From Dysidea avara (taxonomy: Eukaryota > Porifera > Demospongiae > Dictyoceratida > Dysideidae), in NCBI RefSeq assembly GCF_963678975.1, contig NC_089280.1, positions 17,396,780 through 17,460,779 of the forward strand: a stretch of 64,000 nucleotides of DNA. Reading direction: 5' to 3'. This document shows, piece after piece, positions 7,088 to 33,887 of this stretch (position 1 is the stretch's first letter; each line of letters starts with the position of its first letter). The notes under the pieces were generated by a model that saw only the letters and a program-made list of their open reading frames with translations, did no database searches and was not told the DNA's origin. The translations under genes were made by a program, and so were the position numbers.

Positions 7088-7175
7088 ATGAGTAGTAGAA
7101 AAGAAGGAAACTTGTTGCTCGTTGTTGAAACTGCAAACAACTTGGAAGGAAAGAGAACAAACCCCAATGGACATG
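7088..7175 (+). CDS. MXD/MNT-like gene, exon 1 (SID)
   Basis: ATG at 7088, 29 codons plus one base, then a strong donor gtaaga. It encodes the Sin3-interaction-like helix: Asn-Leu, a hydrophobic run LLVV, then Glu-x-Ala and Leu-Glu, spaced as in MXD1 (NIQLLLEAADYLE). The single left-over base fits the incoming phase of the exon at 10555. Upstream sequence is rich in AGCT/ACGT palindromes and in-frame stops, so this ATG is the likely start. Confidence 0.75.

Positions 7176-33887: not shown

Follow-up and report, generated by a model that had tools for sequence, protein, structure and literature searches.

Does a sponge gene encode a MAX-network repressor that recruits corepressors through both of its ends, by a Sin3-type helix at the start and a Groucho-type motif at the end? 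Animals usually have one to few MXD-type genes, which lie at the heart of growth control. The gene in question lies in a 64,000-nucleotide stretch of the keratose demosponge Dysidea avara (G000:C9:17396780-17460779), here called the window. The original prediction, made from these letters alone, described a single MAX-network repressor with both motifs. Our main reading, which we hold with a probability of about 0.6, is that the gene belongs to a lineage-specific array derived from an MXD/MNT gene, whose members would be Sin3-recruiting repressors with a possible second route through Groucho.

The predicted gene model was confirmed (Table 1). Six exons chain in phase, with GT..AG at every junction, into 409 residues with a single terminal stop; upstream of the ATG, the fourth codon before it is an in-frame stop. 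The best match in a protein search, the public D. avara gene model P0001 (376 residues), equals the window protein minus residues 30-62, which are 33 linker residues, and from the DNA we infer that it uses the acceptor at 10654. This independent annotation agrees with junctions 11000/26953, 27050/27908 and 28125/33454. Of the three junctions named in the original prediction, only 7175/10555 is absent from the P0001 isoform. That exon 6 might be part of another gene was ruled out: P0001 joins it to exon 5, as predicted, and the neighbouring copies repeat the exon order.

Table 1. Features of the window gene and of related array copies. Coordinates are window positions except where preceded by C9.
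Feature	Coordinates	Strand	Basis or remark
Exon 1: start codon and SID-type helix, residues 1-29 and first base of codon 30	7088..7175	+	Exon chain, P0001
SID-type helix NLLLVVETANNLEG, residues 8-21	7109..7150	+	Usual family form NLLLIVEAANILEG
Exon 2: linker, acidic stretch, basic region	10555..10834	+	Exon chain; probable alternative acceptor 10654, from P0001
Basic region HNAKEKKR (His116, Glu120)	10812..10834	+	Arg123 codon split by phase-2 intron; Arg124 in exon 3
Exon 3: helix 1, loop, helix 2	10889..11000	+	Phase-0 intron after Lys160; Pfam HLH on bHLH-zipper piece
Exon 4: leucine zipper	26953..27050	+	Exon chain, structure model
Exon 5: acidic, serine-rich region	27908..28125	+	Several paralogues with VIDV like sponge MXDs
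Exon 6: conserved core and C-terminus	33454..33887	+	Exon chain
Last-exon core, residues 297-346, ALQAQSIQLAQLQTFTNPIWLPPFVWPNLNSLYSTVTGNQVNGTNSLYEK	33546..33695	+	Comparison of 30 last exons
eh1-type C-terminal motif FTIDNLVKTV, residues 400-409	33855..33884	+	Translation, paralogue comparison
Last exon of neighbouring array copy (P0011 gene), TFSIDNLV then stop	2873..3282	+	Genome search
Class B last exons	C9:16814301, 16856786, 17231633, 17294062, 17355825	-	Genome search

The window also holds other elements. An integrase fragment of a retroelement (Integrase_H2C2; 21080-21853, minus strand) sits in a part of the 16-kb intron 3 where GC content and skew are raised. A reverse transcriptase fragment (RVT_1) lies at 48729-49613 on the plus strand, and a fragment similar to it by eye lies directly downstream of the window gene (~34.5-35.1 kb). 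A U4 spliceosomal RNA gene was found at 48462-48566 on the minus strand (72.7 bits against a gathering score of 46). Five CACGTG sites occur within 2 kb of exon 1 (5162, 5936, 6391, 7964 and 7999), and for two neighbouring copies with a SID exon the count within 3 kb is one each; overall, 60 were counted in 264 kb, with ~32 expected from composition. The sites near exon 1 are possible signs of autoregulation, or chance.

The gene is real, but it does not stand alone as originally described: it is one of ~25-30 array copies of related, fast-changing genes that appear to encode repressor-type DNA-binding proteins. Searching the whole genome with the 409-residue protein (135 candidates, 102 scored) gave 112 exon matches, all of them confined to C9:16.734-17.801 Mb (~1.07 Mb), with copies on both strands. 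Thirty of the matches are last exons, and all 30 were read. SID exons were read for 12 copies (10 from the genome search and two from a separate search near the window), and basic regions for all 32 copies with an exon-2 match. The 100 kb that follow the window on its right-hand side contain no array match; one further copy lies at 17.80 Mb. The public proteins P0001-P0011 are all from D. avara and from one 36.7-Mb chromosome. A family-profile search for relatives returned 20 proteins, of which 14 are from D. avara; the other six are five pieces found on ENA contigs and one on a JGI contig of 1733 bases. By eye, P0012 resembles the copy at 17162421 and P0015 the copy at 17797524, so relatives of this type are probably from the same species. 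In the copies at C9:16922366, 17022847 and 17126026 (L086, L097 and L083), the HLH exon continues into TGNVDKRNQSSIPLNSKACG, a stretch of sequence from the last exon, and it does likewise in P0013; these appear to be internal rearrangements between exons.

The copy number itself may be partly an assembly effect, with uncollapsed haplotypes placed in tandem, and we give this a little less than an even chance. Between ~16.93-16.97 and ~17.03-17.07 Mb, seven of eight piece pairs are 99.3-100% identical and one is 97.6% identical. Because of these near-identical pairs, several copies may come from a recent duplication or an uncollapsed haplotype, and the 100-kb repeat may inflate the count. In the available text of a published D. 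avara assembly, 61 unplaced scaffolds are read as alternative haplotypes (PMC12909245); that assembly, possibly a different one from G000, has 575 Mb against 550.8 Mb in G000. Haplotypes in tandem would not account so easily for the five other piece pairs, which are 91-98% identical (they differ by 2-9%), or for copies on both strands.

The predicted MXD/MNT-type SID at the start of the protein is better kept in the family than in the window copy. AANILE or AANIVE occurs in 11 of the 12 fetched SID exons, and AAxxL also in P0002, P0004 and P0007. The window copy, with TANNL in place of AANIL, is the only one of the 12 without an AAxxL-type core, which makes Sin3 binding less certain for it than for the related copies. 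In a systematic fly study, Sin3A was required by repressive domains containing AAxxL, according to the part of that paper available (PMC9890238). A different pattern, phi-x-x-L-phi-x-phi-A, was proposed from four PAH2 ligands in the accessible part of another paper (PMC8657803); it fits neither the window helix nor the family form, which fits AAxxL only. Taken alone, the SID-like score is weak for the window copy, being reached by 1014 of 20000 shuffles of the whole protein (17 of 20000 for shuffles of the first 40 residues). For P0005 the corresponding counts are 37 and 0. The helix has a dN/dS of 0.07 over eight distinct SID exons without the window copy and 0.15 over nine with it, values to be read with the fact that SID exons were located for 12 copies only and through their resemblance to array proteins, a route biased towards conserved exons. 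The helix of P0013 is broken. Five matches to Sin3 PAH exons lie together on C11 of the same genome. A Sin3-type repressor family, as judged from these sequence patterns, is fairly well supported.

The middle of the protein is the expected bHLH-zipper. The E-box triad is His116, Glu120 and Arg124 within HNAKEKKRR (residues 116-124), and the AlphaFold model of P0001 has two long helices over residues 74-161, with pLDDT of 76-97 by ten-residue block over residues 81-160 and a pTM of 0.25. We regard this model as useful for the bHLH-zipper alone. The HLH domain was recovered by Pfam on the bHLH-zipper piece (22.4 bits, cut-off 20.7) and fell below the cut-off in the whole protein (18.9 bits). Foldseek with the whole P0001 model found no PDB match, and a PDB sequence search with the protein and the family profile found no bHLH match, returning weak matches to unrelated chains only. 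Within class A (defined below), pN/pS in the basic region is 0.13; in the same comparison 22 of 25 HLH exons were kept, misaligned or truncated ones having been dropped.

Loci for MYC (L002), MAX (L006) and a canonical MXD (L035+L033+L036) lie outside the array in this genome. Translated, the MXD locus gives SVEALLKAAQFLEE, HNLLEKHR with RAQLRDC...KYIE after it, and EEEVIVDVDESDSES; the proteins related to it include an Amphimedon max dimerization protein 3-like. Three introns are common to this locus and the window gene: one of phase 1 follows the SID exon, one of phase 2 splits the codon at His+7, and one of phase 0 comes at the end of helix 2; the MXD locus has one additional intron in the linker. 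Among 14 HLH places in the genome, only the MXD locus has the His+7 intron, and 12 read through the site; L032 has a phase-2 intron one codon upstream of it. P0002-P0006 carry SVIDV or SVVDV followed by acidic residues, comparable to VIDV in sponge MXDs, and the window copy lacks this motif. Since the AAxxL helix and the position and phase of the bHLH introns are common to the array and sponge MXD, the array is most likely a diverged MXD radiation.

An origin from another bHLH-zipper gene, MYC- or MAX-like, would make the SID resemblance a case of convergence. We think this improbable, even though the free bHLH-zipper tree (25 rows, with the short rows L005 and L008 left out) joins the array to MYC, at a support of 52/24. 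In this tree the array is a clade with support of 100/100 on a very long branch. Placing it with MXD (AU p 0.34) or with MAX (0.28) is not rejected, and the tree alone does not place the array with MXD as against MYC or MAX. Of the three profiles, the MXD one (built from nine rows, those of MYC and MAX from two each) gives the highest scores on each of 10 array rows (18.9-26.1 bits, against 8.3-18.2 for MAX and 6.7-12.2 for MYC). The same profile gives 32.8-49.3 bits on canonical MYC and MAX rows, above every array row, so the array is far from MXD, MAX and MYC alike. The exon structures speak against a MYC- or MAX-like source: the D. avara MYC bHLH-zipper lies in one exon and the MAX intron falls in the loop, whereas the array introns match MXD, and the exon with the AAxxL helix, N-terminal as it is in MXD, likewise ends in phase 1. 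Because the bHLH phylogeny does not place the array, its proposed membership in the MXD family rests on the SID, the introns and the relic of the acidic motif in the paralogues.

The end of the protein was predicted to be an eh1-type motif, and the pattern is present. FTIDNLV at residues 400-406 fits the heptad F-x-[IV]-x-x-[IL]-[ILMV], in a region with pLDDT below 50. The array form F-x-[IV]-D-N-L-V is close to the Goosecoid-type eh1 core. In 20000 shuffles, a strict version, written after the motif had been seen, turned up anywhere in 4, a looser one in 792 (15 when confined to the last 12 residues) and the ELM eh1 pattern in 1337 (16 when so confined). The loose pattern is absent from all nine canonical sponge MXDs compared. 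Four matches to Groucho TLE_N exons lie on C13 of the same genome, two of them above the family cut-off. The C-terminus was also considered as a PDZ ligand and rejected, position -2 being Lys.

The Sin3-type family could be just as described and the C-terminal motif still not be a Groucho ligand, having been kept by common descent or for another short-motif partner; we put this at somewhat below even odds. The paralogues are young, with 13 piece pairs at 91-100% identity, and the loose pattern arises by chance in 792 of the 20000 shuffles, as given above. The heptad F-x-[IV]-[DN]-[NK]-[LF]-V is found at or near the end of 15 of the 30 last exons and is missing from the other 15: in 10 a stop or frameshift, upstream of the heptad or inside it, has removed it, and the five of class B do not show it. 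The ELM pattern covers 12 of the 15 copies that have the heptad and fails for the three with FRVDNFV. The way in which the heptad varies speaks against this. Its F is unchanged, V7 has a synonymous change only, and I/V and L/F are swapped; positions 1, 3, 6 and 7 change among hydrophobics only, whereas positions 2 and 8 change freely. Over 11 distinct tails, positions 1 and 3-7 have a pN/pS of 0.27, compared with 1.32 for the preceding 12 codons. By parsimony there are 6 N and 5 S changes in the heptad against 32 N and 4 S upstream (Fisher p 0.023), the upstream codons having been taken ungapped, which inflates their N count. In four copies (three of them near-identical), the protein ends directly after the heptad, which is spared. 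The original claim of an eh1-type end thus stands as a pattern conserved above its flanks, and we infer Groucho binding from that pattern and constraint. A Groucho arm through the C-terminal heptad is plausible.

The last exon carries a second conserved element. Core residues 297-346 have a dN/dS of 0.18 over 26 distinct copies and are little changed in the 30 last exons, class B included. The core is partly helical in the structure model, and neither the family-profile protein search nor the PDB sequence search found relatives of it outside the family. It may matter as much as the two protein ends.

The array copies fall into two groups, class A and class B. Members of class A have a basic region of the HNAKEKKR type, a SID exon where one was located, and the C-terminal heptad in 15 of 25 last exons. 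Class B consists of five copies on the strand opposite to the window gene. RTANEK or RTADEK replaces HNAKEK in all five (17237869, 17299969, 17361723, L090 and L091), and none of the five last exons has the heptad. The public class B models P0008 and P0009 begin in exon 2, without a SID exon, and none was seen at the class B loci whose surrounding DNA was examined. Over the 32 basic regions, the His is kept in 24 of 27 class A copies and in none of the five class B copies; the three class A copies without it (16922366, 17022847 and 17126026) are those in which the HLH exon reads into other sequence. In class B the losses of His, heptad and SID exon go together, the last being judged on the two public models.

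These differences bear on whether the copies work at all. Many, perhaps the window copy too, could be non-repressing competitors or decaying genes, leaving few working repressors, a view we find less likely than not. The TANNL core of the window copy fits it, as do the stops or frameshifts that cut 10 of the 30 last exons, the seemingly damaged HLH exon in L095 and L096, and the absence of His and heptad from class B. Decay is harder to reconcile with the low dN/dS or pN/pS in the SID helix, basic region and last-exon core, and the reading frame of the window copy is intact and covered by a public model.

Under our main reading of MXD-derived repressors, class A proteins would dimerise through the bHLH-zipper, most likely with MAX, and the dimers would sit on CACGTG-type sites. 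The N-terminal helix would bring Sin3/HDAC and so repress, opposing MYC. With less confidence, the C-terminal heptad might add a second route via the Groucho WD40 domain. Class B, if active at all, would be a decoy for dimerisation. A bolder version, in which a single MXD-type MYC antagonist became a cluster of at least two dozen Sin3- and Groucho-armed repressors opposed by a decoy subclass without both arms and the His, is less likely than not as a whole; if true, a gene cluster would be running MYC/MAX control. In a sponge, a megabase array of such diverged, MXD-like repressors would be a case of MAX-network expansion within one lineage; the eh1-like end, if functional, would give a MAX-network member two corepressor routes. 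The interest lies more in the array and the two conserved ends of the family than in the window copy.

No MAX-network member with both a Sin3 and an eh1/Groucho route was found described in the open full-text literature, where the broader matches, among those listed, were judged by titles and the beginnings of abstracts. In the main text of the D. avara genome paper, as far as available, bHLH and Myc are absent (PMC12909245). Among known systems, the MYC and MAX of D. avara have the network and the genome in common with the array. They differ from it in their introns and have no SID and no eh1-like end in the exons read; the one-exon bHLH-zipper of MYC (L002) has no counterpart in the window gene, where the domain is spread over exons 2-4. 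Eh1/Groucho repressors (homeobox, forkhead, T-box and others) resemble the array in the tail F-x-[IV]-D-N-L-V. In the available part of Copley 2005, eh1 is reported in homeobox, forkhead, T-box, ETS, DM and zinc-finger proteins, and, unlike for the array, bHLH appears in a reference title only (PMC1310626). MNT is like the array in combining a SID, a bHLH-zipper and a long C-terminal part, and unlike it in that this part is proline- and histidine-rich and binds REL, with eh1 unmentioned in the accessible text (PMC8465425). The same text gives humans four MXDs in addition to MNT, and the available part of a sponge study counts one Mad gene in Amphimedon and none in Sycon (PMC5064789). The MXD (MAD) family (human MXD1; sponge P0021, P0025 and P0029) has these features in common with the array: an N-terminal AAxxL helix in its own exon, a bHLH-zipper with His-Glu-Arg, both bHLH introns at the same position and phase, and the acidic VIDV motif, of which the array paralogues keep a trace. 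The array differs from the MXD family in its strongly diverged bHLH-zipper, its long extra last exon with a conserved core, its eh1-like C-terminus and its ~25-30 copies.
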